In this document: in pieces, positions 17,553 through 34,559 of the stretch
Position numbering within the stretch: the stretch's first letter is position 1
How the letters are laid out: every line of letters starts with the position of its first letter
Assembly: GCF_947495705.1 (NCBI RefSeq)
Contig: NZ_CANLZR010000004.1
Coordinates: 186,001-250,000, forward strand
DNA length: 64,000 bases
Direction of reading: 5' to 3'
Source of the DNA: an uncultured Phycicoccus sp.
Lineage (GTDB): Bacteria > Actinomycetota > Actinomycetes > Actinomycetales > Dermatophilaceae
Notes under the pieces: model-generated
The model's input: the letters and a program-made list of their open reading frames with translations, nothing else
Told to the model about the DNA's origin: nothing
The model's database searches: none
Translations under genes and position numbers: made by a program

Positions 17553-20051
17553 TCAGGCGGGGGACGGGACCTGCCGGCGGCGCCACCGGCGGGCGGCGGG
17601 CGCGGTGCGCTCCCGCGCGACGAGGAGCGGCCGTGGGTCGGCGTCCGAGCGCAGCCGGGTCCACCGGCCGACCCGCGAGCGCAGCGTCGAGCGGGCCGCC
17701 TCGGCCCGAGCGTGCAGCGCCGCGCTCGTCGCGGGGTCGCCGTCACCGGGACCGAACACGACCGCGTCGATCGCGACAGCGACCGAGACCACGGAGACCA
17801 CACCCTCGGGCGGCCGGGCGAACCGGCCGACCTCACCCGGGGCGGCCGTGCCGGTGATCGCCTCGACGACGGCCCCGTCGACCGCCCACGCCTGCTCCCG
17901 ACGTGTCATGCCTCGCGGCACGGCGACACCGAGCGAGCGGGTCTCGGCGACCAGGTCCCGCCACACCCATGCGGCCCGCTCCGGTACCGGCCCGTGCGAC
18001 GCGTGGCGCCGGCGCCGGCGCGCCTTGAGCCACCGCAGCACCAGGACGTACAGCGCCGCGAGGAGCAGCGGGACGAGCACCGCGAACACGAGGATCTTGA
18101 GCCACAGCGGCCAGGCCGCGACGTCGAACGGGCTCTTCTTGCGCTTCGTGACGTCGGTGGCGTTCTGCGCCTGGTCCGGGCCCTGGAGCACCGACGGCGG
18201 GCTGACCCCGGCCGGGGGCGGCACCTGGGCGCCCACCTGCTGCTCCTCGGTGCGCAGCTGCTGCTCGCTCGGGGTCTTGTCGCGGCTCGGCACGAACGTG
18301 TCCCAGCCGAGCGGGAACCACGAGCCGTCGCCGAGGCGGACCTCGACCCAGGCGTGCACGTCCTTGCCGCGCACCTCGCCGCCCGCCTCCGGCACGGCCC
18401 CCATGACGACGCGGGACGGGATGCCGAGGCGCTGCCCGACGAGCGCGAGCGTGGCCGCGTACTGCTCGTCGTTGCCCGCCAGCTTGCTCGACCCGACGAA
18501 CCGGGTGAGCCGCGACATGGCGTGCCCGGGCAGGTACACCTTCTCGAAGCTGTTGGGGGTGCCGCCGTCGGTGTACGTGCCCTCGGTGCGCATCGCGGTC
18601 GCGAACGCCCGCAGCTTGGCCCAGGAACCGCCCTCGGCGCGGCTCGTCCAGGCATCGATCCGCGAGTCGAGGAAGTCGACGTCGACGCCGGCCGAGGCGC
18701 CCGAGGCGACGTCGAGGTCCTCGGGCAGCTCGGCGGCGGGCGCGGCCGGCACGAGGGCGCTCATCCGGTAGGTCTCCCCCCCGACGAGCCCGGCGGGGAC
18801 GAGCGCGGTGGCGGTGTCGGTGTTGAGCCAGAGGGCGCCGGCGAGGTCGTCGGCCCGCGGCCCGTCGAACTCGATGCGCGTCGGCGCGCCCACCGTCGGC
18901 AGCCAGGTGCCCCGGTACCCGCCGTCGGGCACCGCGACCTCGACCTCGACCGGGGTGCCCCGGCCGGACGCGGCGATCCGGGAGCCCACCTGCTGGAAGG
19001 GCACCCCGTCGGCGCTCCGGTCGGCGGCGCCCCAGACGAGCCCGTCGTACCGGTCGAGCGTCGCGAAGCGGACGACCTGACCCTGCGGCAGGCCGCGGAC
19101 CCGGAGCACGACCTCGTCGTACAGGTCGGCCTCGTTCGGCTCGGTGTACTGCCGGTAGCCGGGCAGCGGGCTCGGGAACTGCGACACGTCGAACGGGGGC
19201 ACGAGCGCGGTCCGCACGACCTCCCGCCGCTCGGCCGCGGCGTACCCGGGCAGGAGGGGGCCGGCGAAGAACCCGCCGAGGAGCGCGACGACCGCCAGGC
19301 CGGCGCCGGTGAGGACCCGGGCGCGGGCACCGGCCCCGTTCTGGATCGGCGCCCGGGTCCGGTGCGACCGGACGACGAGCCAGCCGACGAGCACCGCGGC
19401 GAACCCGACCCCCTGGACCAGCACGGCGGCCGGCTCCAGGGTGCCGAGGGCGATGGAGGCCGCGAGCAGGCCGAGCGGGGCGAGCGCGCTGAGCGGCACA
19501 CTCGCCCACCGCCGGGCCACGCCCAGGGTCAGCGCACCCCCGAGCAGGCCGGCGAGCCACGGCAGCGCCAGGACCGGGCCGCGCGCGTCGACCGGCGGCA
19601 GCAGGGTGAGCCACTGCTTCCACCCGGTGACCGCCCACGTCGCGAGATCGGCGAACGTCTGCGGCGTCGGGACGACACCGGCGACCAGGGAGTCACGAAC
19701 CGCCAGCGGCCCACCGAGCAGCAGGTACCCGGCGACCAGGACGAGGAACGTCGTGAGCGCCATCCACCGGAACGCGGCAGCCAGGTGCCCGACGGCCAGC
19801 CCGAGGACGAGCCCGGCCCACGCGGCCACGACCCACTCGACGCCGAGGAACCCGGTGCGCAGCCCGAGCAGGGCGATGCTCACGAGGACCGCGGCGAACG
19901 CGAGGTCGACGAGCGCGTCCCGGTCGGGCACGGCCCGGCGCAGCACGCTGGGCGCGCCGGGGTCGCGGGGCGCCCGCCGGGCACCCCCGCGCAGCGCGGT
20001 CGCGAGGCTCGGCGGGGCCTGCGCCGCCGGCCCGCCGGCGGGCCCGCTCAT
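17553..20051 (-). CDS. TgpA-like transglutaminase-fold membrane protein, catalytic Cys replaced
   Basis: An 832-residue protein. Several N-terminal transmembrane helices (about residues 45-275, DUF3488-like) are followed by an extracytoplasmic transglutaminase-like core, one more helix (WPLWLKILVFAVLVPLLLAA) and a cytoplasmic DUF4129-like tail. In the core the usual GYCEQ motif reads GNDEQ, so the catalytic Cys is Asp 528. The His (VHAWVEV, His 566) and Asp (GWDTF, Asp 584) are kept. Classical acyl transfer is therefore unlikely unless chemistry differs. The ATG overlaps the DUF58 stop as ATGA. It is the last gene of the MoxR-DUF58-TgpA run. Confidence 0.9.
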   Translation of the reverse strand: MSGPAGGPAAQAPPSLATALRGGARRAPRDPGAPSVLRRAVPDRDALVDLAFAAVLVSIALLGLRTGFLGVEWVVAAWAGLVLGLAVGHLAAAFRWMALTTFLVLVAGYLLLGGPLAVRDSLVAGVVPTPQTFADLATWAVTGWKQWLTLLPPVDARGPVLALPWLAGLLGGALTLGVARRWASVPLSALAPLGLLAASIALGTLEPAAVLVQGVGFAAVLVGWLVVRSHRTRAPIQNGAGARARVLTGAGLAVVALLGGFFAGPLLPGYAAAERREVVRTALVPPFDVSQFPSPLPGYRQYTEPNEADLYDEVVLRVRGLPQGQVVRFATLDRYDGLVWGAADRSADGVPFQQVGSRIAASGRGTPVEVEVAVPDGGYRGTWLPTVGAPTRIEFDGPRADDLAGALWLNTDTATALVPAGLVGGETYRMSALVPAAPAAELPEDLDVASGASAGVDVDFLDSRIDAWTSRAEGGSWAKLRAFATAMRTEGTYTDGGTPNSFEKVYLPGHAMSRLTRFVGSSKLAGNDEQYAATLALVGQRLGIPSRVVMGAVPEAGGEVRGKDVHAWVEVRLGDGSWFPLGWDTFVPSRDKTPSEQQLRTEEQQVGAQVPPPAGVSPPSVLQGPDQAQNATDVTKRKKSPFDVAAWPLWLKILVFAVLVPLLLAALYVLVLRWLKARRRRRHASHGPVPERAAWVWRDLVAETRSLGVAVPRGMTRREQAWAVDGAVVEAITGTAAPGEVGRFARPPEGVVSVVSVAVAIDAVVFGPGDGDPATSAALHARAEAARSTLRSRVGRWTRLRSDADPRPLLVARERTAPAARRWRRRQVPSPA

Positions 20052-21493
20052 GCCAGCGCCCCGGAGAACAGGACGCGCCGCACGTCGGTGAGCTCGCGGA
20101 CGTGGAGGATGACGATGGAGCCCAGGCGCCGCACCCCCACCGGCACGTCGGCGTCGACGACGAGCGCGACGCGCACCACCTCGGGCTCGAACTGGTCCAG
20201 GGTGCGCTGCACCTGGATGAACGGCCGGTCGACGCCGGTGACGAGCACCGCGACGCTCGCGTCCGGGGCGAGCCCGGCGGCCTGCCCGACCGAGGCGTAC
20301 AGGTCGAGCGGCCCGACGTCGGCACGCGCGAGCGCGTCGAGGGTGAGCGGGGCGGTGGTGCGGGACGCGGTCTCGCCGTGGCAGACGACCGTGGTGTCCT
20401 GCTCGTCGAGGATCGAGCGCAGGGCAAGCGACGCCGCGCAGGAGATGGCCACCTCGACGTCGTCCTCGCCGCCGGTGTAGACCTCCGGGCTCGTGTCGAC
20501 GACCACCGCGAGGTGGGACCGGCGGGTGTCGAGGAACTGGCGCACGAGGAGGCGGTCGTGCTTGGCGGAGGAGCGCCAGTGGATGTAGCGACGGTCGTCG
20601 CCGGGCTGGTACTCGCGCAGTGCGTGGAACGCGAGGTCGGACATCGACAGATCCGGCGTCACCTGGCCCTCGAGGTCGCGCAGCAGGCCGGCGCCGAGGC
20701 TCTCGAGCGAGATGGTGCGGGGGTGCACGACGAGCTCGGTGCGCTCGGTCCAAGCGACGGTGCGTCGGACGAGCCCGAGGGGGTCGCCGTGCACGGTCGT
20801 CGCGGGCCCGACGGGGACGACGCCGCGGGCGCCGGTCGGTACGACGAACAGCTCCTCGTGGGTGCGGCCCGCACCGAGCGACGGGAGCGTGAACCGCGCT
20901 GCGGTCCGCCCGACGGGCAGCTCGAGGAGCAGCGGCATCGTCCCGCGCGCCGACTCGTTCCGCACCGTCACCCGGCCGGTCGCGGGGTCCCCCACGGTGA
21001 CCCGGCTCGGCTCGACCTCGGCCCGGATCCGCAGCTTCGCCCGGCCGACGGCGAGCAGGACGCACGCGAGGACGAGGACGAGGCAGGTGGCGGCCACCAT
21101 CGACAGCTCGAGCCAGGCGTACCGGGCGGTCATCCACCACGCGAGGAGCCCGACGGCCAGCACCGTCCAGCCGAGCGGGGACACCCAGCGCAGGATGTCG
21201 AGCACCGGGCGCCACACCGGTCGGGTCTGCTGCGCGAGAGGGCGGATCCGGCTGCCGGTGAGGACGAGGATGCGGGCCCCGGTGTCGGTGAGCGCGGTCG
21301 GCACCTGGACCCGCGGCAGCGTGATGGTGCGGGTCTCGCCGTCGGCCCTGCTGCGGCGACGCGGGGGCTGCCCGGGGGCCCCAGCGGCGACGGGGCGCGC
21401 GGCAGGCGCCTCCGCCCGCGGGGCGGGGGGAGGGGTCAGGCCGGAGCGACGGACGGTCGACTCGGCCTCGTCGGGCGGACCCACCGTGCTCAT
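20048..21493 (-). CDS. DUF58 protein
   Basis: A 481-residue membrane-linked protein. Two adjacent hydrophobic helices (about residues 104-150) follow a Pro/Ala-rich cytoplasmic region. The DUF58 signature YQPGDDRRYIHWRSSAKHDRLLVRQ is present, then a von Willebrand A-like segment with a metal-binding DTS (LAVVVDTSPEVY). DUF58 proteins pair with MoxR ATPases and are thought to act as their targets or adaptors in envelope assembly. Both ends overlap the neighbours by ATGA, so translation is coupled to MoxR and TgpA. Confidence 0.92.
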   Translation of the reverse strand: MSTVGPPDEAESTVRRSGLTPPPAPRAEAPAARPVAAGAPGQPPRRRSRADGETRTITLPRVQVPTALTDTGARILVLTGSRIRPLAQQTRPVWRPVLDILRWVSPLGWTVLAVGLLAWWMTARYAWLELSMVAATCLVLVLACVLLAVGRAKLRIRAEVEPSRVTVGDPATGRVTVRNESARGTMPLLLELPVGRTAARFTLPSLGAGRTHEELFVVPTGARGVVPVGPATTVHGDPLGLVRRTVAWTERTELVVHPRTISLESLGAGLLRDLEGQVTPDLSMSDLAFHALREYQPGDDRRYIHWRSSAKHDRLLVRQFLDTRRSHLAVVVDTSPEVYTGGEDDVEVAISCAASLALRSILDEQDTTVVCHGETASRTTAPLTLDALARADVGPLDLYASVGQAAGLAPDASVAVLVTGVDRPFIQVQRTLDQFEPEVVRVALVVDADVPVGVRRLGSIVILHVRELTDVRRVLFSGALA

Positions 21494-22461
21494 GCCGGGA
21501 CGCGCTCCGTGGGGGGCGACACCTCGGCGAGGATCTGGTCGATGACCTGCGGGGTGGTGATGCCCGCGAACTGCGCCTCGGCGGTGACGAGCAGCCGATG
21601 GTTGAGCACCGGCTGGGCGAGCAGCTTGATGTCGTCGGGGACCACGTGGTCCCGGCCCTGGCTGATGGCCCAGGTCTTCGCGCAGCGGACGAACGCGAGG
21701 CACCCGCGCACCGACAGCCCGAGCCGGACGCTCACGTGCCGCCGGGTCTCCTCGGCCAGCCGGGAGACGTAGTCGAGGATCGCGGTGTCGACGTGCACCT
21801 CGTCGGCGAGCTCGGCCATGTCCGACACGACCTGGGAGGTGACGACCGGCTCGAGCCCGCGGGTCCGGTCGCGCACCTTCGCGTCGCGCAGCACCCGCAC
21901 GGTCGCCTCGTGGTCGGGGTAGCCGAGCGTCGTCTTCATGAGGAACCGGTCGAGCTGGGCCTCGGGCAGCCGGTACGTGCCCGCCTGCTCGATGGGGTTC
22001 TGGGTCGCGATGACCATGAACGGCTCGCCGACGCTGTGCCGGGTGCGGTCGACGGTGACGTGCCCCTCCTCCATCACCTCCAGCAGCGCCGACTGGGTCT
22101 TCGGCGAGGCGCGGTTGATCTCGTCGGCGAGGACGATGGTCGCGAAGATCGGGCCCTGGTGGAACTCGAACTGCTTGGTGTTCGGGTCGTAGATCGTCAC
22201 CCCGGTGACGTCGCTCGGCAGCAGGTCGGGCGTGAACTGGATGCGCGAGTTCGAGCCCTTGACCGTGCCGGCCATCGCCCGCGCGAGCTGGGTCTTGCCC
22301 GTGCCCGGGAAGTCCTCGAGGAGCAGGTGCCCCTCGGACAGCATGCACGTCAGGGCGAGGCGGATGACGTGCTCCTTGCCGAGCACCGCCTTGTCGACGT
22401 TGGCGACCATGGCGGTGAAGGTCTGGGCGAACCAGGCGGCCTGGTCGGTCGTGACGGTCAT
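21490..22461 (-). CDS. MoxR-family AAA+ ATPase
   Basis: A 323-residue chaperone-like ATPase. Walker A is FPGTGKT (about 51-57), Walker B is IVLADEIN (about 109-116), sensor 1 is VIATQNPIEQAGTYRLPEAQ, and arginine-finger and lid segments follow (LDRFLMKTTLGYP). MoxR ATPases usually mature or insert cofactors into VWA/DUF58 partners; here the partner gene overlaps by ATGA. The gene starts 37 bases after the giant FN3 gene stops, so all are probably one operon. The Shine-Dalgarno (GGAAGGA) is rather far, about 11 bases, from the ATG. Confidence 0.95.
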   Translation of the reverse strand: MTVTTDQAAWFAQTFTAMVANVDKAVLGKEHVIRLALTCMLSEGHLLLEDFPGTGKTQLARAMAGTVKGSNSRIQFTPDLLPSDVTGVTIYDPNTKQFEFHQGPIFATIVLADEINRASPKTQSALLEVMEEGHVTVDRTRHSVGEPFMVIATQNPIEQAGTYRLPEAQLDRFLMKTTLGYPDHEATVRVLRDAKVRDRTRGLEPVVTSQVVSDMAELADEVHVDTAILDYVSRLAEETRRHVSVRLGLSVRGCLAFVRCAKTWAISQGRDHVVPDDIKLLAQPVLNHRLLVTAEAQFAGITTPQVIDQILAEVSPPTERVPA

Positions 22462-22498: not shown

Positions 22499-25400
22499 CT
22501 AGCCCCAGTTGGTGCTGCCGGAGTGCGACCCCGACCCGTTGAAGAGGCGGACGGTGACGGTGCCGACGTTGTTGCCGTACAGGCACCGGCCCGGCCAGGT
22601 GTAGCCGTTGCCGCCCGGCCCGACGGTGAGCTTGGAGCTCGAGACGAACCCGCCGGCGTTCGTGCTGCGACACTCGACGCTCCACACCGACCCGCCGGGG
22701 AAGTCGCGGATGTCGAAGAGCACCTCGGGGCAGCCCGGGCTGTAGCTGCACGAGCCTTGGCCGTTGGGGTCGACGTAGCGCTGCTGGCTCTTGCGGACGT
22801 TGTAGACCTCCGGGGGCGGGTTGGGCACGGTGACGCTGCGGTACGCCGTCCAGCCCGACCAGCCCGCGGCCGAGTGCGCCCGCACCCGCAGCTGGTAGGT
22901 GCCGGGGCCGCGGTTGATCGACTCGGAGGTCTTGTTGCCGCCGAAGGTGCCGTTGACCGCGCCGTCGAGCTGGACCTGGTCGACGTTGCGGCCGTTCTCG
23001 GGCAGGTTCCACGTCCACGTCACGGTGTCGCCGTTGCGCGACCCGGTGAATGCGGTCGGGGTCAGGGTGTCGCCGTACGGGGTCGCGCCGTCGCTGACCC
23101 GGTTGGACTCGTTGCCGCCGGAGTTGACCGTCCACACGGTGACCGTCCGCGGGGTCGTCGGGCTCGTCTGGAACGGCCCCACGGTGAAGGTGACCTGCGA
23201 CCCGGCGGCGCACCCGCACGTGTGCGTCCCGTTCTGGCCGTCGCTGGCGCGCCACCGGACGGCGGTGAAGCTGCCGGCCCGCGGCTGCCCGACCGAGACC
23301 GTCACCTCGATGCGCTTGTTGCTCGCCGGCGTCGTCGCGCGCACCGTCGGCGTCGACGGGATGCCGTTGGAGGTGAACGAGGACGAGTTGCTGCGCGGCG
23401 ACTCCAGCCCGGCACCGTTGGTGAGCGTCGCGGTGTACCGGTAGGTGCGCCCGTCGTACGGGATGACGACCTTGGCGCTGCGCACGTCGGGCGCGGTGTC
23501 GGTGACCTTGGTCCAGGCCCCCGAGTCCACCGACTGGTAGAGGGTGTACCTCGTCGTCGGCGGGCCGTTGGGCGTGCCCTGCTCCCAGGTGACGGTGAGC
23601 GTGGCCGAGTCCTGCGCCGGGCCCGGCCCGCTGGCGGCGATGCCGGGGGCGGCGAGCGCGGGCGGGGTGCCGGCCGACTGCATCGTGACGGCCGGGCCGA
23701 ACGGCCCCGCGCCCAGCTCGTTCCAGGCCTGGACCTGCACGTCCTGCTCGGCCATGTTGTCGAGGCCGGTCACCGTCGCCTGCCGGGTCGGCGCGGCGAC
23801 GTCCTGGGTCTTGGTCTGCCCGGTGCTCGAGATGAGCCGCACGACGTACTTGCGCAGCGCGCTGCCCTCGTTGACCGGCTCCTCCCAGACGATGGTGAGC
23901 GAGCCGTCGCCGCGGGAGACCATGCGCACACCGGTGACCTGCTCGGGCAGCCGGTCCGGGCGCACCGCCGGTGTCGGCGCCGAGGGCTCACCCTCGCCGA
24001 CGCCGTTGACCGCCGCGACGGTGAAGCGGTAGTCCTGCCCGTTCGTCAGGCCGGTGACGGTGCACGGGGACGCCGTGCACGTCGTGCTGCCCGACGAGCC
24101 CCCCGTCCAGCGGACGACGTAGGAGGTGACGACCGACCCGCCGTCGTACGCGGGGGGCAGCCAGGACACCCGAGCCTGGCCGCCCGAGTCGCGGTCCGCG
24201 ACCGCGGCCACCTGCCGGGGGACCGACGGGCGGCCGAGCATCGTGACGGTGATCCGGCCCGGGGCCTGCCGGCCGGGGCCGTCACTGACGACGATGCCCA
24301 CCTGGGCGGTCTGGGACGGCTCGGTCCCCACGGCGAGCGTCACCGAGCAGCCCGACGCCGACGCCGTGAGGCCGGAGCCGGACTCGACGGCGGCGGAGGT
24401 GACGGTGCAGCGCGGCTCGGGCAGGGGCGAGTCGAGGTACGGGCGGATGTCGACGGTGCGCGACTGCCCCTCCTCGAGCCCCGACACGTCGATGGGCCGC
24501 ACGCTCGCCGGCGGCAGCGGGCTGTCGTCGTCCCCCGTGGCGTCCGCGGCGCGGCCGACGACCCGCACGGCGATCGTCGACGGCTCGTCGAGGCCGGGCG
24601 AGGTGACCGAGAGCGACCCCTGGGAGGTGGAGGCGTCGGGGCCGGCCCGCAGCGTCAGGGTGCGGTTGCCGGGCCCGTCGACGGTGAGGTCGACGTCCGG
24701 CTCCTCCTGCCACCGGGTCTCGAACTGCACGTCGTCCAGGGTCATCCCGACGGGCAGCCAGGCGTGACAGAAGGTCGGGATGTCGACGACGCGCTCGAGC
24801 CCGCCGGCGGTGACGGTGACCGCGCCGTCGGGGCAGCGCAGGAGCGGGACCTTCGGGCCGATCTGCACCGGGACCGACACGTACGCCGTGCCGTAGTCGG
24901 TCTGGTCGACCGCGTCCTGGTCGGTGACCTCGAGCATGACCGCGGCCGGGCCGACGTACCCGTTCGAGGAGGTCAGCTCCAGGGTCCGCTGGTCGGTGAG
25001 CGACACCGACAGGTGCTCGGCGGGTGAGGCCGACAGCGTCTCGGCGGTCGTGACCGACACGACCCGGCCCCGCGGGGACCTGACGTAGTCGTTGACCGGG
25101 ACCGTCCTCGTCGAGTCCGGGTCCATCTCGACGAGCGAGCCGGCGACGACGAACGGCTGGCCGTTGGCGCCCGTGGGGACGTGGATCAGCGCCATCGCCT
25201 GGGCGCCGTCCTCGTCCTCGATGACGTACGGCACCGAGTGCGGGTGGTCGAGGATCTGCACCCGGACCTGGTTCGTCGCGGGGTCGTAGGCGGCGTCCGG
25301 GGACAGGACCTCGACGATCCGCAGGGTCTCGGGGTCGGAGTCGACGTCGGTGTCGTTGGCGAGCGCGTCGACGAGGGTGCCGGTCTCCCCCGGCTTGGGC

Positions 25401-28400
25401 GCCGCGACGTCGTCGTTGGCGACCGGAGGGTTGACGTAGCCCGGCACCGGACGGACCAGGATGCTGGCCCGCGAGGGGTCGAAGAGGCCGTCGCTGATGC
25501 CGTAGACCAGCTGGTGCAGCGCGGTGACGTCCTCGGGGACCTTCGTCGTCACGGTGTGGTCCTCGTCGACCGGCCACCGCTCCAGGGTGGCGGCGTCGTT
25601 GAGCGACTCGGTGTCGACCTCGACGACATCGCCGCGGGCGATGAGGTCGTTGACGAGGGGCCGGATCGTCACGGTCTTGCCCGGGGCGGCGAACACCTCG
25701 TCGGGCACCGCCACCGGCGGCTGGGCGTCGCCGGGCTGGACGACCCCGACCCGCACGAACGCACGGCTCGTCGCGCCGAAGCGGTCGTTGACCTCGTAGG
25801 TGATGACCTCGGTCCCCGCCGCGAGCGGGTAGGCCTCGTAGCGGATCGTCGTCGGCCCGATCGCGACGACCCGGCCGAAGGTGAGGTCGACGGGCCCGCC
25901 GTCGGCCCCCACCACCCCGGCGACCGAGACCGAGTCGCCGTCGGGGTCGACGCCGAAGGTCGGGATCGTCATCGTGATGGGATCGCCGGCGGTGACGGTG
26001 GCGGTGAAGGTGCGGGCCACGGGCGACTGGTTGATGCGCTGCGCGGTGGGCAGCGGGGTGACCTGCACCCGGACCCGGGCGGACTGCGCGCGCTCCTTGC
26101 TGCCCTCGGCGTACGCCGCGTACTCGATGGTGACGAACGACGACGCCGTGAGGCCCCGGGCCTCCGGCACGTAGCGGACGACGTTGCCGGAGGCGAAGGC
26201 CCGTTGCGCGCGACCCTTGCTCACGACCTTGACGCTGGCGGGGTCGAGCCGCAGCGGGATGCCGTCGGCCATCGTGTCGTTGTCGAGCACCGGGATCGAG
26301 ACGGTGTCGCCCTCCCGGACGGTGGCCTCGTCGTCGACGACGATGGGCAGCGCGTCGGTGAGGGCACCCTGCTGCAGCACCGACACCTGGCCGGTGACGC
26401 GCTGCGTCCCGTCGCTCACCGTGTAGCGCACGACACCGCGCCGGCCCTGCTCGCCTGCCGGTGCGGGCTCACGGGCCTCGAGCCGGACCCACCGCCCCTG
26501 GTAGATCGAGGGCTGGATCCAGGAGGCGTCCTCGTCCGACTCCACCGACGCCGTCACGAGGACGTCGCCGCGCGGGGAGTAGTCATTGGCCAGCACGTCG
26601 ACCATGGCGGGGGCCTGGTCGTGCAGGGTCGCGGTGTCGGGCACCGACACCGGCGGCGCCCCCTCGGGCGGGGCGACGAGGTCGACCCGGATGCGACCCG
26701 GTGCCGCGCCCGCGCCGGTGACCGCCGAGTACGACAGGTCGTAGGTGCCCGGGGTCGCCCCGGTGACCGTCACCGCGCCGGTGGCGAGGTCGGTGTCGAC
26801 CTGGAGCGGGCCGACGGGACGCACCTCGCTGCGCAGCGTCAGCACCGCGTCGGGCTCGCCGGGGTCGGCCCCGGCGATGTCGTTGCCGAGCGGCTCGACC
26901 TGCAGGGGCTTGCCGACGACGCCGCGCACGGCGTCGGGCTGGGTCCGCGGGGCCACGAACTTGCTCTCGCCGTCGGTGCCGATGACCTGGGCGTTGACCG
27001 TGCCCTTCGTCGTGCCGCCACGGCCGTCCGTGACGACGTAGGCGACGGCCTGGCGGCCCACCTCGAGCGGAGCGGTGAGGGTCACCCGGCCGGCGCCGTC
27101 GATGACACTGCCCTCGCGGTCGGCCCGGGCGGCGAGGACGTCGTTCTCGGGGTCCCGCCAGTCGGCGAGCACCGGCACCGACAGGCGCTTGCCGGCGATG
27201 ACGGGGTAGGCCTGCTGGGCCAGCGCCGCGCCCTGCCGCAGCCGCGGGGACCCGTTGACCTCGTCCCCGACGATGCGCACCGACACCGTCGCGGACTCCT
27301 TGGACACCGCCTTGCCGTTGTTCACCTTGTACGTGAACTGGAACTGCTGGTTCTCGGTGCCTTCGGGGACCGAGACGTCCACGGCCTGCCCGTCCGAGCT
27401 CACCGTCGCCGCCACCCCGCGCAGCGAGGGCGCGCTGACGTCGCGCTGGTCGATCGCGAGGACGGACCCGGCCACGTCGGTGTCGTTGTCGAGGACGTGC
27501 AGCTTGCTCGTGCGACCCGGGCGGACCGTCAGGGCGTCGGGCACGGCCTTCGGCGGCTGCTGGAGGCTCGCCTCGTCGAGGAGGTTCTCGTCCTTCTTCT
27601 CGTTGTCGTCGTCCTGGCGGGTCGGCGGCGTCAACGCGTCCCAGTTGTCGATCTTCGTCGGCTTGTCCTCGAGGTCCCACACCCCGCCGTTGTCGAGGTC
27701 GTTGAGGACGAGCAGCCCGCGGTTGACCCGGAAGGCGACGCCGTCCCGGGTCGGTTCCTCGCCGTCCGCCGGGAGCGTGGCCGTCGGCTGGTCGTCGACC
27801 CGGCCGCAGTTGGCGCCGTAGAAGACCCGGTTCTGCTCGGCCCACGCGGCATGGAGGCAGCCGTCGAGGACGACCGGCCGGGTGATGAGGGTCGCTCCCG
27901 GCACCCGGTTCACCTGCTCGCCGACGACGACGCCGCCCGGGGCCGCGTCACCGCCGAGCGGCACCCGCGCCGCCCGGGACGTCGACGCCACGACGACGGA
28001 GCCGGCCTCGGGCCCCGGCACCTGGAGGGCCGCGAGCCGTTCGCCGTCGACGGTGACCTGCGCGTCGGTGCCGTCCGGGCGTCCCGCCGTGTAGACCGTG
28101 TCGGTCTCGGCGTCGTAGGCGACCCAGTCGGCGCCGACCGCGGTGATGTCGGGCAGGTCGCTGCGCAGGGCCGTCTCGACGACGACCGGGGCGGCGAACC
28201 CCTGCGGCGTCGGCGCGATGGAGGTGACGGTGCCCTCCGCGCCCGAGACGACGTGGATCACCCCGTCGAGACCGACCGTCAGGGCCCCGTCGCCGCCGAC
28301 CTCCGCGACCGGCTCGGCGCCGACGGCGAGGCCCGGGAAGCTGTCGGTGCCGGCCTCGGGGTCCACCCGCTCGGCGTACACCGTGCCCTTGGCCGGGTCG

Positions 28401-28849
28401 AGCATCGCGAGGGTGCCGCCGCGCAGGTCGACCGGTCGCGGCACGAAGCGCCCGCGGCCACCGGGAGCGGCGGGCACGGTGGCGGCCGGGTCGCCGGCGG
28501 TCGAGGTCCGCACGTCGATCGGGAGGAGCTCGCCGGTGGCGGTGCCGAGGCCGAGGACGACCGCGCCGTCCTGGAGCACGTCGAGACCGCCACCGGCTCC
28601 GGCGTCGGTGGCGACGCCGGTGTCGAGCTGGCCGATCGGGACGTTGGCCCGGGCGAACTTCGCCTGGGCGCCCGAGCTCACCCACACCCCGGCGTCGTGG
28701 AGGTCCGCCTCGTGCACGGTGGTGCCGTCACTGGCGACGGCGGCGTAGCCCAACCCGGCGGCGACGAGCACGACGGTGAGCGCGCTGGCGGTGCGCCGCC
28801 GCGCGGCGTTCCTCGCCGCGCGGACGCGCGGAGCAGCAGCCCGGCTCAC
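22499..28849 (-). CDS. Giant Ig-like/fibronectin type III surface protein
   Basis: A 2,116-residue protein. A basic N-terminus and one hydrophobic segment (about 20-40) act as anchor or signal. Residues about 45-410 look like a propeller-type beta domain. From about 430 to 1460 there are cadherin/Ig-like (VCBS-type) repeats marked by LDNDTDV, LANDYSPRG, LDNDTMADG and ANDTDVDSD. From about 1540, FN3 domains follow, e.g. GLTNGQDYRFTVAAVNGVGEG, then a Cys-containing C-terminus (CSYSPGCPE...CRST...RCLYG). The GTG has an AAGGAG ribosome-binding site. It corresponds to the FN3 protein of the bifidobacterial PFNA cluster. A role as an extracellular sensor, adhesin or scaffold is inferred. Confidence 0.9.
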   Translation of the reverse strand: MSRAAAPRVRAARNAARRRTASALTVVLVAAGLGYAAVASDGTTVHEADLHDAGVWVSSGAQAKFARANVPIGQLDTGVATDAGAGGGLDVLQDGAVVLGLGTATGELLPIDVRTSTAGDPAATVPAAPGGRGRFVPRPVDLRGGTLAMLDPAKGTVYAERVDPEAGTDSFPGLAVGAEPVAEVGGDGALTVGLDGVIHVVSGAEGTVTSIAPTPQGFAAPVVVETALRSDLPDITAVGADWVAYDAETDTVYTAGRPDGTDAQVTVDGERLAALQVPGPEAGSVVVASTSRAARVPLGGDAAPGGVVVGEQVNRVPGATLITRPVVLDGCLHAAWAEQNRVFYGANCGRVDDQPTATLPADGEEPTRDGVAFRVNRGLLVLNDLDNGGVWDLEDKPTKIDNWDALTPPTRQDDDNEKKDENLLDEASLQQPPKAVPDALTVRPGRTSKLHVLDNDTDVAGSVLAIDQRDVSAPSLRGVAATVSSDGQAVDVSVPEGTENQQFQFTYKVNNGKAVSKESATVSVRIVGDEVNGSPRLRQGAALAQQAYPVIAGKRLSVPVLADWRDPENDVLAARADREGSVIDGAGRVTLTAPLEVGRQAVAYVVTDGRGGTTKGTVNAQVIGTDGESKFVAPRTQPDAVRGVVGKPLQVEPLGNDIAGADPGEPDAVLTLRSEVRPVGPLQVDTDLATGAVTVTGATPGTYDLSYSAVTGAGAAPGRIRVDLVAPPEGAPPVSVPDTATLHDQAPAMVDVLANDYSPRGDVLVTASVESDEDASWIQPSIYQGRWVRLEAREPAPAGEQGRRGVVRYTVSDGTQRVTGQVSVLQQGALTDALPIVVDDEATVREGDTVSIPVLDNDTMADGIPLRLDPASVKVVSKGRAQRAFASGNVVRYVPEARGLTASSFVTIEYAAYAEGSKERAQSARVRVQVTPLPTAQRINQSPVARTFTATVTAGDPITMTIPTFGVDPDGDSVSVAGVVGADGGPVDLTFGRVVAIGPTTIRYEAYPLAAGTEVITYEVNDRFGATSRAFVRVGVVQPGDAQPPVAVPDEVFAAPGKTVTIRPLVNDLIARGDVVEVDTESLNDAATLERWPVDEDHTVTTKVPEDVTALHQLVYGISDGLFDPSRASILVRPVPGYVNPPVANDDVAAPKPGETGTLVDALANDTDVDSDPETLRIVEVLSPDAAYDPATNQVRVQILDHPHSVPYVIEDEDGAQAMALIHVPTGANGQPFVVAGSLVEMDPDSTRTVPVNDYVRSPRGRVVSVTTAETLSASPAEHLSVSLTDQRTLELTSSNGYVGPAAVMLEVTDQDAVDQTDYGTAYVSVPVQIGPKVPLLRCPDGAVTVTAGGLERVVDIPTFCHAWLPVGMTLDDVQFETRWQEEPDVDLTVDGPGNRTLTLRAGPDASTSQGSLSVTSPGLDEPSTIAVRVVGRAADATGDDDSPLPPASVRPIDVSGLEEGQSRTVDIRPYLDSPLPEPRCTVTSAAVESGSGLTASASGCSVTLAVGTEPSQTAQVGIVVSDGPGRQAPGRITVTMLGRPSVPRQVAAVADRDSGGQARVSWLPPAYDGGSVVTSYVVRWTGGSSGSTTCTASPCTVTGLTNGQDYRFTVAAVNGVGEGEPSAPTPAVRPDRLPEQVTGVRMVSRGDGSLTIVWEEPVNEGSALRKYVVRLISSTGQTKTQDVAAPTRQATVTGLDNMAEQDVQVQAWNELGAGPFGPAVTMQSAGTPPALAAPGIAASGPGPAQDSATLTVTWEQGTPNGPPTTRYTLYQSVDSGAWTKVTDTAPDVRSAKVVIPYDGRTYRYTATLTNGAGLESPRSNSSSFTSNGIPSTPTVRATTPASNKRIEVTVSVGQPRAGSFTAVRWRASDGQNGTHTCGCAAGSQVTFTVGPFQTSPTTPRTVTVWTVNSGGNESNRVSDGATPYGDTLTPTAFTGSRNGDTVTWTWNLPENGRNVDQVQLDGAVNGTFGGNKTSESINRGPGTYQLRVRAHSAAGWSGWTAYRSVTVPNPPPEVYNVRKSQQRYVDPNGQGSCSYSPGCPEVLFDIRDFPGGSVWSVECRSTNAGGFVSSSKLTVGPGGNGYTWPGRCLYGNNVGTVTVRLFNGSGSHSGSTNWG

Positions 28850-28970: not shown

Positions 28971-28986
28971 GCCAGCCGGTCGCTCG

Positions 28987-29688: not shown

Positions 29689-29710
29689 GGCGCGGTCCTT
29701 CCTCCTGGGG

Positions 29711-31162
29711 TCACCGGGCGGCCTCGCACCGGATCGGGGACCGGGGCGAGGTGATCCCGGACTCGCGGGACACCGTCACCTGGGCGCAGACCGTCGACCC
29801 CGGGGCGGCCCGTACCCGGTACGAGCTGTCGTCCCGCACCGTGACGACCTCGGCCCCGGCGAGCTCGGCCTCGGAGTCGCCCACCCGCAGCTGGTAGAAG
29901 TCGCCGCTCTCGGCGCCGACGTAGTTCCACGAGAACGTCACCGCACCGGCGGCGGCGCGGGCGTCGATGGCGGGCTGCTCGGGGTAGTCGACGACCCGGC
30001 TGGGCGGGGCGGTGCGGGTCACCGTCCCCTGCGCGGGCGCGGGTGGCGGTTCCTCCTCGCCCCGGCCGACCGCCCAGACGACGACCGCGACGGTGACCGC
30101 GACGAGCCCGGCGAGGACCCCGAGCACGACCCCGCCGCTGATCGTCGGCGGCTGGTCCGCCGCGTCCTCCTCGGCCGGGCCGGCGGGGGCCGGGGCCGGC
30201 GCCGCGGCGGGCAGGGCCACGGCGCGCACGCTCGTGCGGTCGGCGTCATCCGCGCCGCGGCCGGCGGGCAGCTCGCTGACGGCGGTGTTGCCCGTCTCGT
30301 CGAGCACGACCACCGGGGTGGTCGCCAGGCGCTGCTCGCGCTCGACGGCCTGGAGTCCCCGCGCCAGCTCGAGGGCGGTGCGCGGACGGGCCTCCGGGCT
30401 CTTGGCCATCGCATGGGCGAGGAGGCGCTCGAGCGAGAGGGGGACGTCGGCCCGCCCGGTCGTCGGGACCGGGGTCGCCCGGATCCGCGGCATCAGCGCG
30501 TAGGCGGAGTTGTCGCCCCCCGGCTGCTCGAACGGCGAGCGCCCCACCAGCAGGTGCCACAGCGTGGCGCCCAGCGAGTACACGTCGCTGCGGGCGTCGC
30601 CGTTGGACTGGCCGTAGAGGACCTCGGGGGCCGACCACGGGACCGAGACGCCGACGTCCTCGTCGACGTCCTCCGCGTGACCGCCGCGCCCGGCGATCCC
30701 GAAGTCGGTGAGCCCCGGCTGGCCGTACTGGCTGACGAGGACGTTCGCCGGCTTGATGTCGCGGTGGATGATGCCCGCGCGGTGCGCGGTCTCGACGGCG
30801 CTCGCGAGCTGGATCCCGGTGCGCAGGACCTCCTCGACCCCGAGGCGTTCGGCCTTGGCCCGCTGCGCGAGGTTCGGCGGCGGGTAGTACTTCATGACGA
30901 GGTACGCGCCGCCGTCCCCGGTCTGCTCGGACCGGAAGACCTGGACGATGTACGGGTGGTCGGCGAGCTGGGCCATCGTGGTGGCCTCGTCGACGAACTG
31001 GCGCCGGATCGCGGCGGTCAGCCCCTGCCGCTTCAGCACCTTGACCGCGACGTTCATCCGCGGCGACTGCTGCTCGTACAGGTACACGTCGGCGTACCCG
31101 CCCGAGCCGAGCGGGCGCACGAACTCCAGCCCGGGGATGTCCGGGGCAGAGCCATCGATCAT
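29711..31162 (-). CDS. Transmembrane Ser/Thr protein kinase with extracytoplasmic FN3-like domain
   Basis: A 483-residue kinase. The catalytic domain (about 10-275) is complete: glycine loop GSGGYADV, Lys 41 (VAVKVL), HRDIKPAN (133-140), DFG (153-155) and APE (178-180). An Ala/Pro linker leads to one transmembrane helix (about 345-366) and a short extracytoplasmic FN3-like beta domain (about 394-478) instead of PASTA repeats. It matches the position of Pkb2 in the bifidobacterial PFNA cluster. The ATG overlaps the upstream FHA gene by ATGA, so kinase and FHA partner are translationally coupled. The PP2C gene nearby is the likely antagonist. Confidence 0.95.
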   Translation of the reverse strand: MIDGSAPDIPGLEFVRPLGSGGYADVYLYEQQSPRMNVAVKVLKRQGLTAAIRRQFVDEATTMAQLADHPYIVQVFRSEQTGDGGAYLVMKYYPPPNLAQRAKAERLGVEEVLRTGIQLASAVETAHRAGIIHRDIKPANVLVSQYGQPGLTDFGIAGRGGHAEDVDEDVGVSVPWSAPEVLYGQSNGDARSDVYSLGATLWHLLVGRSPFEQPGGDNSAYALMPRIRATPVPTTGRADVPLSLERLLAHAMAKSPEARPRTALELARGLQAVEREQRLATTPVVVLDETGNTAVSELPAGRGADDADRTSVRAVALPAAAPAPAPAGPAEEDAADQPPTISGGVVLGVLAGLVAVTVAVVVWAVGRGEEEPPPAPAQGTVTRTAPPSRVVDYPEQPAIDARAAAGAVTFSWNYVGAESGDFYQLRVGDSEAELAGAEVVTVRDDSSYRVRAAPGSTVCAQVTVSRESGITSPRSPIRCEAAR

Positions 31163-32499
31163 GCGTCGACCTCGTAGGTGAGCGAGACCTCGTCGGCGAG
31201 GGTGATGACGGCCCCCGGCTCGATGCCCTGGTCCTCCGTGGGGCGCAGGCGCACGGGCTCCTCACCGGGCAAGGTGACGGTGGTCCCGTTCGTCGAGCCG
31301 AGGTCGCGCACCAGGACGTGCCAGCCCTCGAGGACCACCTCGGCGTGGTTGCGGCTGATGTCGCGGTCGACGCTGCCGACCCGGATCAGGTGCGGGCGCT
31401 GGCTCGGTGCCAGCTCCTCGTTGACCCGTGGCGCGCGCCCGAGCAGGACCCCGCGGTCGAGCGTCACGACACCGCCGGTCGAGATGCGCAGGACCCCGAG
31501 GGCCGGGCGCGGGATCGGGACGGGCTGCTGGGGCGGGATCGCGCGCCCGCAGCCGCGGCAGTGCCCGGCGTGCGGCGGTGAGTGATGGCCGGCCGGGCAG
31601 AGGACGGCCAGGACGACCGGCCGGTCGAGATCCTCGTCGTTGCGCGGCAGCGACGCCCGGGCGGTCGTGACCTCGACCGGAGCCGGCTCGGCGGGTGTCT
31701 CGGTGGCCGCCGGCTCCGGGGGCGCCGCCTCGGTGACGTCCGGCACTGCGGGCTGCTCCTCCGGAACGGGCGCGGCGGCCGGCTCGCCGTCGGGCGCTCC
31801 GGGTTCCGTGGCCGGGAGCGCGGCGGTGGCCGGAGCCGCGGGCGCCGGCGCGGCCGGGTGCGCCGCGGCACCACCCGCGCGCCGCCACGGCACGGAGTCG
31901 ATGAGGGCACTGTCCGGGGCGGGGCCGGGCGGGACCCGGTCGGCCGGGCTGGCGCCGGGGCTCTCTGCGGGCGGGGGCAGGGTGAGGTCGGCCGGCGGGA
32001 CGGCGGGCGTGCCCTGCTCCGGCGTCGGCGTCGGCTCCGGGACCGGCGCAGGGTCGGGGTCCGGGTCGGGCTCGGGCGCGGCCGCTGCGGGAACGGCGGC
32101 AGCAGAAGTGCCCAGACGGGCCGGGCGACGCCAGCCCCGCGCGACGACGGGCTCGGGCTCCGGGGCCGCGAGGGTGATCTCGGCCCCGGGGTCGGGGACG
32201 TCGACGTCGGCCCAGGGCTCGCGCTCCTCGGCGGCCAGGACCCGGCCGTCCTTCAGCTCGACGCGCACCACCCCCCGCAGGATGGCGCGCACGGCCGGGC
32301 CGTCGGTCGCCACGACGCCGAACGCGGGCAGGACGAGCAGCCCGCGGGAGCAGAGCAGGTCGAGGAACGGCACGAGCCCCTCGGCCGCGGCAGCCGTCAG
32401 GGCGTCGACGTGCCGCTCGGCCACCTCGACGACCGCGCTGATGCCGGGCCCGCTGATCTCGACGAAGCCGTCGGGCACCGACGTACGGACCGCGGTCAC
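31159..32499 (-). CDS. FHA-domain protein with zinc ribbon
   Basis: A 446-residue soluble protein. Residues about 1-100 form an unnamed N-terminal domain (VEISGPGISAVVEVAERHVD). A long Pro/Ala/Glu-rich disordered linker follows to about 290, then a zinc-ribbon-like CPAGHHSPPHAGHCRGCG. The C-terminal FHA domain has the full phosphothreonine-binding pattern LLGRAPRV, SRNHAEV and LGSTNGT. It should bind a phosphorylated partner, most simply the overlapping kinase. GAGGAG lies 6 bases before the GTG start, and a TACGCT -10 is present upstream. Confidence 0.9.
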   Translation of the reverse strand: MTAVRTSVPDGFVEISGPGISAVVEVAERHVDALTAAAAEGLVPFLDLLCSRGLLVLPAFGVVATDGPAVRAILRGVVRVELKDGRVLAAEEREPWADVDVPDPGAEITLAAPEPEPVVARGWRRPARLGTSAAAVPAAAAPEPDPDPDPAPVPEPTPTPEQGTPAVPPADLTLPPPAESPGASPADRVPPGPAPDSALIDSVPWRRAGGAAAHPAAPAPAAPATAALPATEPGAPDGEPAAAPVPEEQPAVPDVTEAAPPEPAATETPAEPAPVEVTTARASLPRNDEDLDRPVVLAVLCPAGHHSPPHAGHCRGCGRAIPPQQPVPIPRPALGVLRISTGGVVTLDRGVLLGRAPRVNEELAPSQRPHLIRVGSVDRDISRNHAEVVLEGWHVLVRDLGSTNGTTVTLPGEEPVRLRPTEDQGIEPGAVITLADEVSLTYEVDA

Positions 32500-32544
32500 A
32501 GGGGCTCCTCACGGGCTCGAACGGGCGGGGGCGAAACAGCCATC

Positions 32545-32550
32545 AGCGTA
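32545..32550 (-). promoter_or_regulatory. Possible -10 (TACGCT) for the FHA-kinase operon
   Basis: TACGCT on the minus strand, 45 bases upstream of the FHA gene start in the divergent gap with the 2H-like gene. A weak -35 is compatible. Confidence 0.45.
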
Positions 32551-32599
32551 ATGGGGTGGGCGTCTCGGGTTCCGGGAGTCGGCGAACCCGTCGCCGTCA

Positions 32600-32605
32600 T
32601 ACGGT
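32600..32605 (+). promoter_or_regulatory. Possible -10 (TACGGT) for the 2H-like gene
   Basis: TACGGT on the + strand, 79 bases before the GTG at 32685. It is the same hexamer as the radA -10 and sits back to back with the FHA-kinase promoter. Confidence 0.4.
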
Positions 32606-32684
32606 GTCCGCGCATCCTGCCCATCGAAGCGCCCTCGAGGTGCGACGATGTCCGCGACCACCCCGCCCGACCCAGGAGGACCCC

Positions 32685-33245
32685 GTGCACGTGTCCGTCG
32701 CGATCCTCCCCCCCGAGCGGATCCGCACCGACATCGCCGAACTCGTCGGGAGCGTCCTCGGGGGCGACCCGGAGCTCGAACGGGTCACGGCCGACGCGAT
32801 GCGGCTGCGGCTCTTCGGGCTGGGCAACCTCACCCGCCTCGACGTGGACGCCCTGTGCGAGAACCTCGCCCGGCAGATCAGCGAGATCGGGGTGCGCCCG
32901 CGGATCCACCTCGCCGGGGTCTGGGCGCTCGAGGACAGCGCGGACCCGAGCATCGCGCTGCACGTCGCCGGCGACACCGCCGGGGTGGTCACGCTGGCCA
33001 ACGCACTGCCGCCCCTCGTCATGGCCCACGGCTTCTTCGTGGACCGCCGGCTCTTCGTGCCCCGGGTCACCGTGGCCCGGGTCACCGACGCGACCTCGGT
33101 CAAGGTCCTCGAACGGCTCGTCAAGGCCCTCGAGGGCTACCGGAGCCCGGAGTGGGAGGTGGACGCGGTCGACGTCATCAGCCCTGTCCGCCGCGACGGC
33201 ACCGGGGCCTTCGAGACCGTCTACTCCCTGGCGACCTCGCGCTGA
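32685..33245 (+). CDS. 2H phosphoesterase (LigT/2'-5' RNA ligase)-like protein, catalytic His missing
   Basis: A 186-residue protein. VSVAILPPERIRTDI at the start and FVPRVTVARVTD near residue 125 follow the layout of 2H phosphoesterases. Where the family has HxT motifs, this protein shows RLRLFGLG and PRVTVAR, so both catalytic histidines appear replaced, most likely by Arg. If the assignment holds it would be a binding protein rather than an enzyme. The GTG start has a strong AGGAGGA ribosome-binding site. It is the only + strand gene inside the kinase/FN3 locus. Fold assignment by eye is moderate; another fold cannot be excluded. Confidence 0.55.
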   Translation: MHVSVAILPPERIRTDIAELVGSVLGGDPELERVTADAMRLRLFGLGNLTRLDVDALCENLARQISEIGVRPRIHLAGVWALEDSADPSIALHVAGDTAGVVTLANALPPLVMAHGFFVDRRLFVPRVTVARVTDATSVKVLERLVKALEGYRSPEWEVDAVDVISPVRRDGTGAFETVYSLATSR

Positions 33246-33276
33246 CACGGGGCGTCCGCGCACCCCGCCGGCGCCC

Positions 33277-34086
33277 TCAGGGTCTGGCGAGGCCGGCCCG
33301 GGGCTGGGTGTCGCCGTCGGCGTCGTCGTCCCCGGCCGCGACGGCGACGACGACGACCGAGACGTTGTCGTGGCCACCGGCCCGCACCGCCGCCGCGACG
33401 AGCGCGTCGGCCGCGCGCTGCGGGTCCGGGTTCTCGCGGGTGAGCAGCATGATGTCGCGGTCGTCGAGCTCCCCCGAGAGCCCGTCGCTGCACACGACGA
33501 ACGTCTCGCCCGGGGTGGGAGCCAGGACCCACACGTCCGGCTCGGGGCCGGGGTCGGTCCCCAGCGAGCGGGTGATGACGTGACGCAGGGGGTGGCTCGA
33601 CACCTCGGACGGCTCGAGCAGCCCCGCGTCGACCAGCTCCCGGACCTCCGAGTGGTCCCGGGTGACCTGGTGCATCCGGTTCTCGGCCACGCGGTAGACG
33701 CGGGAGTCCCCGACGTTGAACACGACCCAGTGCTCGCGGCCCCCGGCGTCGACGACCGTGACCCCCGTCGCCGTCGTCCCCATGCCCCGCAGCTCGGGAT
33801 GGTCGGCCTGGGCCCGCAGGATGCGCCGGTTGGCCTCGCGCAGGGCCTCGGCGACGTCGTCGGGGCGGGAGGCCGGGTGGTCCTCGAGCTCGGTGAGCAC
33901 CTCGACGGCGATCCGCGAGGCGACCTCGCCCGCCGCGTGCCCGCCCATCCCGTCGGCGACCGCGAACACCCGCGCCCCGGCGACGAGGCTGTCCTCGTTG
34001 TGCTCGCGCACCCGGCCGACGTGGGTGGCCCCCGCGGCGCGCACGAGCAGCGAGCTGCCGCGCAGGACCCGCCCGGCGCGGGTCAT
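33277..34086 (-). CDS. PP2C-family Ser/Thr phosphatase
   Basis: A 269-residue soluble protein phosphatase, the predicted antagonist of the local kinase. Metal-binding motifs are intact: REHNEDS, VADGMGGHAAGE, VGDSRVYR, CSDGLSGELDD and GGHDNVSVVVV. The ATG overlaps the stop of the upstream small gene by ATGA. There is no transmembrane segment. It converges on the 2H-like gene with a 31-base gap. This corresponds to PrpC in bifidobacterial PFNA clusters, although there the gene order differs. Confidence 0.96.
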   Translation of the reverse strand: MTRAGRVLRGSSLLVRAAGATHVGRVREHNEDSLVAGARVFAVADGMGGHAAGEVASRIAVEVLTELEDHPASRPDDVAEALREANRRILRAQADHPELRGMGTTATGVTVVDAGGREHWVVFNVGDSRVYRVAENRMHQVTRDHSEVRELVDAGLLEPSEVSSHPLRHVITRSLGTDPGPEPDVWVLAPTPGETFVVCSDGLSGELDDRDIMLLTRENPDPQRAADALVAAAVRAGGHDNVSVVVVAVAAGDDDADGDTQPRAGLARP

Positions 34087-34559
34087 CCGCGCACCTCCTC
34101 GACGACGAGGGACTCCAGGACCGCCTGGAGCGCGTCGTAGTCGGCGTCCAGCCCCGCACCGCGCGCCCGGCCCACGGCCAGGACGTGGCGGCTCACGACG
34201 TCCGTGGGGTCCAGGGTGGTGGCGAGGTGGACCTCGACGACGGGCGTGCCGTCCTCGTCCCACGAGACGTTGCGGGCGTGCCACTCGCGACCGCCGATCT
34301 CGACGACGAACGGCTCCTCCACCTGGCCCGCTCCCCCGGCCACCTGCGACGTCGAGTCCTCCACGAGCACAGCGCTGCCGAGTGCGGGGTCGCCCGTGAG
34401 GTGTCGGACGGCGATCTCGACGGCGTCCCCGCCGGCCCCGGACCCGGCGGCCCGGAGCAGGGCGTCACCGGACGGCTGCGGCTGCCAGCCGTCGGGGATC
34501 TCGAGCCGCACGGCGGGCGCGGGTGGAGCGCTCGGGCCCGGGTGGGTGACAACGGGCAT
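34083..34559 (-). CDS. Conserved hypothetical protein coupled to the PP2C phosphatase
   Basis: A 158-residue soluble protein of unknown function. After a short Pro/Ala-rich N-terminus it reads AVRLEIPDGWQPQPSGDAL and later VVEIGGREWHARNVSWDEDG and VSRHVLAVGRARG. This has the look of a small alpha/beta domain (possibly PsbP/LpqN-like, a weak impression), without a signal peptide. The ATG at 34559 has an AGGGGGAG ribosome-binding site, and the gene ends in an ATGA overlap with PP2C, so it belongs to the same signalling system. Confidence 0.75.
   Translation of the reverse strand: MPVVTHPGPSAPPAPAVRLEIPDGWQPQPSGDALLRAAGSGAGGDAVEIAVRHLTGDPALGSAVLVEDSTSQVAGGAGQVEEPFVVEIGGREWHARNVSWDEDGTPVVEVHLATTLDPTDVVSRHVLAVGRARGAGLDADYDALQAVLESLVVEEVRG

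Follow-up and report, generated by a model that had tools for sequence, protein, structure and literature searches.

The closest described counterpart of the gene system analysed here, which occupies positions 17553-34559 of a 64,000-nucleotide stretch of DNA (the window) from an uncultured Phycicoccus sp. (contig NZ_CANLZR010000004.1), is the PFNA cluster of Bifidobacterium, with its five core genes pkb2-fn3-aaa-atp-duf58-tgm. In the PFNA papers, the cluster is called unique to bifidobacteria (PMC8430577), its FN3 protein is said to occur only in Bifidobacterium (PMC10688814) and its TGM protein is called a transglutaminase or a presumed cysteine protease (PMC8430577, PMC6803598). Pkb2 phosphorylates the PFNA MoxR in B. 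longum according to the same two sources, an eight-gene version of the cluster with a phosphatase, a hypothetical protein and an FHA protein is described from that species (PMC8430577), and a likeness to the mycobacterial moxR operon has been drawn (PMC12067865). Two other systems share parts with the locus. The canonical MoxR-DUF58-TgpA cluster has TgpA_N, the transglutaminase fold and the gene order in common with it, and the report on Pseudomonas aeruginosa TgpA, in which the triad is conserved, gives a measured transglutaminase activity (PMC3507681). The MoxR-vWA-centric ternary systems (Kaur et al. 2020, PMC7159879) likewise join MoxR to a partner, and one class of them includes a beta-propeller. 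Among the matches listed by our literature search, with subscription journals mostly outside its scope, there was no report of the cluster outside bifidobacteria or of a missing catalytic Cys.

We find with high confidence that the window carries, within the families sampled, one form of a single wider actinobacterial system, and with equally high confidence we regard its gene content, its conservation and the loss of the catalytic Cys from its transglutaminase-like protein. All nine minus-strand genes that the original prediction placed at 17553-34559 are present there, in the transcription order U158, PP2C, FHA protein, Ser/Thr kinase, FHA-like protein, giant, MoxR, DUF58 and TgpA-like:

34083-34559, minus strand: U158, a protein of 158 amino acids (aa) without a family match; its gene has an ATGA overlap with that of PP2C
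33277-34086, minus strand: PP2C phosphatase, 269 aa (PP2C_2, 62 bits, cut-off 24)
31159-32499, minus strand: FHA protein, 446 aa, with a proline-rich middle and a C-terminal FHA domain (33.9 bits, cut-off 20.7)
29711-31162, minus strand: Ser/Thr kinase, 483 aa, with one hydrophobic helix and an ectodomain of ~100 aa
28987-29688, minus strand: FHA-like protein, 233 aa, with a predicted FHA fold and a helical C-terminal half
22499-28849, minus strand: giant surface protein, 2,116 aa (Pfam: Big_9 in 7 stretches, fn3 in 2 stretches)
27650-28690, minus strand: beta-propeller of the giant (aa 54-400) from structure prediction, the part common to the short forms
21490-22461, minus strand: MoxR-family AAA+ ATPase, 323 aa (AAA_3, 208 bits)
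20048-21493, minus strand: DUF58 protein, 481 aa, with N-terminal hydrophobic stretches (47 bits, cut-off 23.4)
17553-20051, minus strand: TgpA-like pseudo-transglutaminase, 832 aa, with TgpA_N at aa 56-436 (N-terminal membrane part), a transglutaminase-like domain at aa 478-581 and a later membrane helix

The five PFNA core genes are shared in order and direction, and the match to the bifidobacterial cluster that the original prediction proposed is therefore upheld. A single extra gene, that of the FHA-like protein, lies between kinase and giant. Just as PFNA optionally includes prpC, a hypothetical gene and fha, the window has PP2C and FHA genes, the latter located upstream instead of at the end; the added U158 gene and the Nostocoides-like genome are further differences, the closest named relative by DUF58 being Nostocoides sp. 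Soil756 (90% identity, L083). The giant compares in size (2,116 aa) with the FN3 protein of B. longum, reported as 1,994 aa (PMC10688814), and has its FN3 domains C-terminal. The window set was also described as larger than the core cluster, which is correct in relation to the five-gene core; in relation to the eight-gene B. longum version, only the FHA-like gene and perhaps U158 are extras.

The TgpA-like protein of the window scores above cut-off both for Transglut_core (45.9 bits, cut-off 23) and for TgpA_N (32.6 bits, cut-off 30). At the position of the catalytic Cys, aa 528, it has Asp (GNDEQYA), and the His of HAW is kept. Canonical TgpA proteins, represented by the 30 best TgpA_N matches in the class together with the window genome's own paralogue (L076), show Cys and His in 31/31, the Cys lying in G[YF]C and the His in HAW or HSW. 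The catalytic Cys was found in 0/172 cluster-type rows (171 distinct, L080 and L188 being the same in sequence). These comprise a set of 98 (Cys 0/98; Asp 84, Ala 6, Glu 3, Gly 3, Gln 1, Ser 1) that leaves out the overlapping loci L050, L051, L053 and L055 and includes the short-form-side L059 and L061; a second set of 54 (Cys 0/54), one row of which, L217, was unaligned and read by eye and has a Glu at the Cys place; and 20 further short-form rows (Cys 0/20; 18 Ser, 1 Gly, 1 Pro), that is, 22 minus L059 and L061, which were already counted. A stray G-x-C pattern in the frames of L086, L191 and L296 lies away from the aligned catalytic column. The catalytic His is retained less strictly, in 55/98 and 10/54 rows of the first two sets. 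A tree built from 29 of the 31 canonical rows and 58 of the 152 cluster-type rows separates the two groups with a support of 1.0. Judged by its residues, the TgpA-like protein is a pseudoenzyme, for which the usual Cys chemistry would be impossible.

Linkage of the genes was assessed from several anchors. The FHA-like protein and the first 550 aa of the giant were each matched in 15/148 genomes of the class (the window's own included in both counts), and the neighbourhoods of these matches have giant, MoxR, DUF58 and TgpA together. Among named genomes, a DUF58 alignment search was used and the best 80 loci were taken, so that linkage is tested by the other genes only. MoxR was called in 76 of these, the other four (L095, L104, L143, L152) being cut at or near the gene, and the giant adjoins in 74/76: in 68 directly upstream of MoxR and in 6 downstream of TgpA, the latter arrangement being that of L078-L081, L089 and L090 (Knoellia and relatives). 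The remaining two are L121, at a contig edge, and L105, with the giant 1.8 kb away and hence beyond the adjacency criterion. A second sample was anchored on MoxR in 119 genomes of the order, 61 of which matched at E <= 1e-100 in 68 places; 57 of these places were taken, as the other 11 were already in the earlier samples. Here, DUF58 and TgpA accompany MoxR in 54/57 and the giant is adjacent in 51/57. The six places without it include L241 and L242, with short-form propeller genes, L229 at a contig edge, L214 and L220, which are also without DUF58 and TgpA, and L204, where no propeller was found. The kinase is present in 57/76 named and 37/57 MoxR-anchored stretches, and its place changes by lineage from upstream to divergent or downstream. 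Because the genes stay near one another through such rearrangement, a functional tie is suggested, and recurrence of the same set across many genera argues against chance. Independent variation of the genes, which would have spoken against the one functional set originally predicted, was mostly not seen in the named and MoxR-anchored samples.

The scan of named genomes contradicts the proposed uniqueness of PFNA to bifidobacteria. The best 80 named loci include Intrasporangiaceae, Nocardioides, Propionibacteriaceae, Actinokineospora, Micrococcaceae, Microbacteriaceae, Cellulosimicrobium, Oerskovia and Schaalia, together with one metagenome-assembled genome (MAG) of Acidimicrobiales and only one locus from a Bifidobacteriaceae MAG; Knoellia, Janibacter, Marihabitans and Arthrobacter are further named genera with the cluster. 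In a family that we label f37, six loci (L227, L233-L237) show the run kinase-giant-MoxR-DUF58-TgpA, with PP2C downstream in several, and all six read GDSEQYAS, so that the Cys is gone and no His is at its place. We take f37 as Bifidobacteriaceae because the phosphoketolase of one of its genomes, G228, is almost identical with that of B. breve in PDB 3ahc; the other f37 genomes follow by family label.

The cluster extends beyond the long-form giant. A profile of the propeller matched 50/246 genomes of the class, as long forms in the families just named and as shorter frames in other families. Twenty of the shorter or weaker places were taken as a sample anchored on the propeller rather than on MoxR or TgpA. 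Their frames are 578-1,311 aa long, apart from one of 2,085 and one of 459 at a contig end, and MoxR, DUF58 and a Cys-less TgpA stand beside the propeller gene in 19/20 loci (exception L297), with a kinase match in 14/20. In nine short-form proteins scanned with Pfam, FN3 scored above cut-off in L289, L290, L291 and L292 and slightly below it in L252, PASTA was detected in 1/9 (L059, four stretches, 107 bits), and nothing clear was found in L284, L299 and L303; proline-rich tails end several of the short-form proteins. The PASTA-bearing protein (L059, 12597-15542, plus strand) is a 982-aa frame with a membrane helix, a propeller-like part, the four stretches and a C-terminal domain, divergent from the FHA-like gene. 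In L061 (8099-12661, plus strand) and L059 (7052-11644, minus strand), the FHA-like gene is separated from the run kinase-MoxR-DUF58-TgpA by frames of ~1,520 aa whose N-terminal start is similar, and in L241 two short-form propeller genes (6812-9481 and 16504-19077, both plus strand) flank one MoxR-DUF58-TgpA set.

The canonical cluster differs on precisely these points. As control, 20 canonical TgpA loci of 12 to 19.5 kb, hand-picked from high-scoring places and some of them from genomes that also carry the cluster, were examined together with L076. Cys and His are kept in 21/21, and neither a propeller match (E <= 1e-4) nor a kinase, FHA or PP2C match above 30 bits was found in any of the 21. 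Loss of the Cys thus appears to pair tightly with the propeller gene, giving a genomic rule by which two MoxR-DUF58-TgpA machines may be separated, and the way in which the two features coincide suggests that an enzyme became a binding module in an ancestor.

At its N-terminus the giant has a predicted membrane helix (aa 8-39) and then a predicted beta-propeller (~aa 54-400), followed by an Ig-like/Big_9 array (~aa 433-1540), FN3 from ~aa 1541 (88 bits over the 2 stretches, best at aa 1544-1627) and a C-terminal region. AlphaFold2, applied to aa 1-430 with 40 alignment rows, gave a model of 27 strands of at least 3 residues in roughly seven blades (mean predicted local distance difference test (pLDDT) 87.6, predicted template-modelling score 0.83), and its PDB matches are mostly propellers, with E down to 8e-8. 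LPxTG was found in the last 60 residues of 0/19 aligned giants. Long forms are narrow in length: 65 open reading frames of the named loci have a median of 2,074 aa, a 5-95% range of 2,020-2,159 and extremes of 1,866 and 2,800, all approximate since the start was placed 50 residues before a motif. We considered a strict molecular ruler as a general rule and rejected it, for the long forms are narrow in length but short forms exist. A fixed domain order was also considered: in four relatives, 14, 11, 9 and 6 of 15 segments find their best match at the same position, so that the order is clear in the nearer relatives and weak in the farthest. Some genomes have tandem giants, the first being immediately preceded upstream by a second giant or the end of one (L141, L145, L147, L148, L151, L194, L212 and others, e.g., Arthrobacter relatives), and in L079 and L080 a further protein of 970-990 aa that looks secreted separates the FHA-like gene from MoxR.

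The kinase of the window has intact HRD and DFG, and the catalytic Lys, Asp and DFG Asp are kept in 52/52 long-form kinases read, out of 91, the others differing in alignment length. An alignable tail of 60-220 aa follows the helix in 87/102 kinase rows, with Trp in 82 and Cys in 81 and 79 (of the 15 rows dropped, 12 stop after the helix and 3 look cut); it is a conserved domain with a probable disulfide. The extracytoplasmic domain that the original prediction gave the kinase is thus upheld. As to its FN3-like character, hhalign probabilities for homology to the FN3 of the giant were 0.3-24%, and we make no such claim. The FHA protein carries SRNH and GSTNGT in its C-terminal FHA domain. The FHA-like protein gave no Pfam or NCBIfam match, and 27 rows (window included) align over its full length with 64% mean column identity. 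Its model (pLDDT 83.1) combines an FHA fold with a helical half, and the best PDB match is Rv1747 FHA-1 (E 9.2e-6); for the C-terminal half, earlier labelled a winged helix, no fold match to a known winged helix was obtained. An FHA domain usually contacts phosphothreonine through a Ser and the Asn of the NGT motif. Both are replaced in the FHA-like protein (DNPYLHR, which is conserved, and GSTLTA), which is therefore probably no ordinary phosphothreonine reader. PP2C shows intact N-terminal metal-site motifs (NED, DGMGGH) and scores 215 bits against NCBIfam Stp1/IreP, slightly below the cut-off of 230, and MoxR has intact Walker A (GTGKT) and Walker B (DEINR). For U158, no match was found in Pfam, NCBIfam or PADLOC, and relatives occur in 7 other loci (L048, L078, L081, L188-L191), of which two belong to Knoellia and the others to genomes of the window's family or order.

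The original prediction counted five junctions at which the genes overlap or nearly do so, and this count is accurate: four are ATGA overlaps of 4 bp (U158/PP2C, FHA/kinase, MoxR/DUF58, DUF58/TgpA) and one is the 22-bp gap between kinase and FHA-like gene. Longer gaps separate FHA-like gene and giant (137 bp) and giant and MoxR (37 bp). The gap of 777 bp between PP2C and FHA contains a plus-strand gene that was previously overlooked:

32685-33245, plus strand: LigT/2'-5' RNA ligase-like gene, 186 aa, with a GTG start and AGGAGG upstream, below Pfam cut-offs

This gene splits the nine two plus seven and, with the set interrupted in this way, transcription of all nine as one unit is unlikely. 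PP2C and FHA are close together in the Knoellia loci L078 and L081 and the LigT profile found no match in the other mapped loci, so the LigT-like gene looks like a local insertion; it stands outside the system. Beyond the set, the window has a penicillin-binding protein and ino1 on one side and CCA tRNA nucleotidyltransferase and MurJ on the other.

Based on these findings, the locus can be understood as the long-armed form of a wider actinobacterial envelope system in which a dead domain holds, MoxR-DUF58 remodels and a kinase controls, an interpretation to which we assign about an even chance. Sequence together with knowledge of the families would place MoxR, the kinase domain, the FHA proteins and PP2C inside the cell, the helices of DUF58, TgpA-like protein, kinase and giant in the membrane, and the propeller with its arm, the dead transglutaminase domain and the kinase ectodomain outside. 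The dead transglutaminase domain would serve as a binding module at the outer membrane face that holds propeller or arm, while MoxR, acting from inside via DUF58, would spend ATP to load, remodel or release the complex. The kinase may sense the condition of the assembly, or that of the wall outside, and may phosphorylate MoxR, as reported for Pkb2 of B. longum, a precedent with which regulation by the kinase fits; the FHA proteins would read the kinase and PP2C would reset the phosphorylation. The arm, be it an Ig/FN3 array, FN3 domains or a PASTA or proline-rich tail, would be the lineage-variable part. More tentatively, and at somewhat less than even chance, we propose that Actinobacteria have two sister MoxR-DUF58-TgpA machines, one active and stand-alone, the other Cys-less and acting as motor of a kinase-read, membrane-anchored propeller receptor with an interchangeable arm, a general system for sensing at the envelope of which PFNA with its proposed immune role would be one late version.

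Several observations weigh against this interpretation. About half of the order's genomes (58/119) are without cluster-type MoxR at the E threshold of 1e-100, among them three of the window's family (G069, G111, G213), and the system is therefore dispensable. Partial sets occur: a Cys-less TgpA with no propeller found (L204, G250), MoxR with FHA and PP2C and without DUF58 and TgpA (L214, G161; L220), a giant without nearby MoxR (L068, G002) and a propeller without MoxR (L297). The rows compared are related to one another and hence not independent. The HRD Asp is lost from short-form-linked kinases of L289 (one of two), L290, L292 and L296, and the DFG Asp from that of L252, so phosphorylation is not constant and both kinase and transglutaminase may be dead enzymes in some lineages; in 12/102 kinase rows the protein ends directly behind the membrane helix, without an ectodomain. 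In DUF58, the vWA-like strand lacks its first conserved Asp in 30/76 cluster-type copies read (by pattern in L078-L157: present 46, absent 30, unread 4 of 80), and the usual metal site may therefore be absent. Matches of the propeller model have low TM-scores, <=0.47 by query length among those listed. As a separate observation, genome G121 has giant, DUF58 and TgpA, with MoxR uncalled, in L067 and, on a different contig (L220), a MoxR accompanied by FHA and PP2C.

Our second choice, which we consider unlikely though well ahead of the other alternatives, is a monitor of the cell wall: propeller, arm and kinase ectodomain would detect peptidoglycan or the state of the wall, wall synthesis would be adjusted by the cluster, and MoxR, DUF58 and pseudo-TgpA would couple the signal and assemble nothing. 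The penicillin-binding protein and MurJ next to the window set would suit this role, yet ino1, CCA or the penicillin-binding protein is found beside the cluster in only some loci; the four PASTA stretches of L059 would suit it as well, and they are confined to one of the nine short-form propeller proteins scanned; and the narrow length of the long-form giants has its counterweight in the short forms, by which arm length is variable. Enzymatic assembly of the surface, with TgpA cross-linking or covalently anchoring the giant, is the least probable of all and to us hardly credible. The original prediction had proposed assembly or anchoring of the giant by MoxR-DUF58-TgpA, and both the above-threshold Transglut_core and TgpA_N scores and the activity of the P. 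aeruginosa enzyme would agree with it, but the catalytic Cys is missing from every cluster-type row, which leaves covalent anchoring by transglutamination unsupported, the His is only partly kept, LPxTG is not seen, and the giant has its own predicted membrane helix.

A receptor or adhesin for host immunity, as proposed for PFNA, in which FN3 would bind cytokines or epithelium and the operon would have evolved for communication with the host, has to account for the presence of the cluster in Knoellia, Janibacter, Marihabitans, Nocardioides, Arthrobacter, Actinokineospora and further named genera, most of which live in soil or water, and of short forms in further families. Binding of TNF-alpha by a B. 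longum FN3 fragment in vitro and reports of adhesion (PMC8430577, PMC10688814) speak in its favour. With the cluster in mostly free-living genera and in those further families, we regard such a role as improbable for the ancestral system and perhaps as a derived use. Slightly more improbable still is a conflict or defence system akin to the MoxR-vWA ternary systems. MoxR does exceed the Pfam cut-off of bpMoxR (37.7 vs 27 bits), but its AAA_3 score is 208 bits; PADLOC models do match kinase and PP2C, but these are broad kinase and phosphatase models, and the other 8/10 proteins are without match. DUF58 replaces the vWA partner, the propeller is on a separate membrane-anchored protein predicted to be outside the cell, and no effector-type gene was recognised among the nine of the window.

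Lastly, the preferred reading of a propeller-based envelope system with a dead transglutaminase domain has importance for how the family is approached. A cluster that has been investigated because it supposedly communicates with the human immune system would be a general actinobacterial envelope system, its TGM protein would be better regarded as a binding partner than as an enzyme, and its function would have to be sought in free-living relatives. The state of the Cys together with the propeller gene may provide a simple genomic rule for telling the two MoxR-DUF58-TgpA machines apart.

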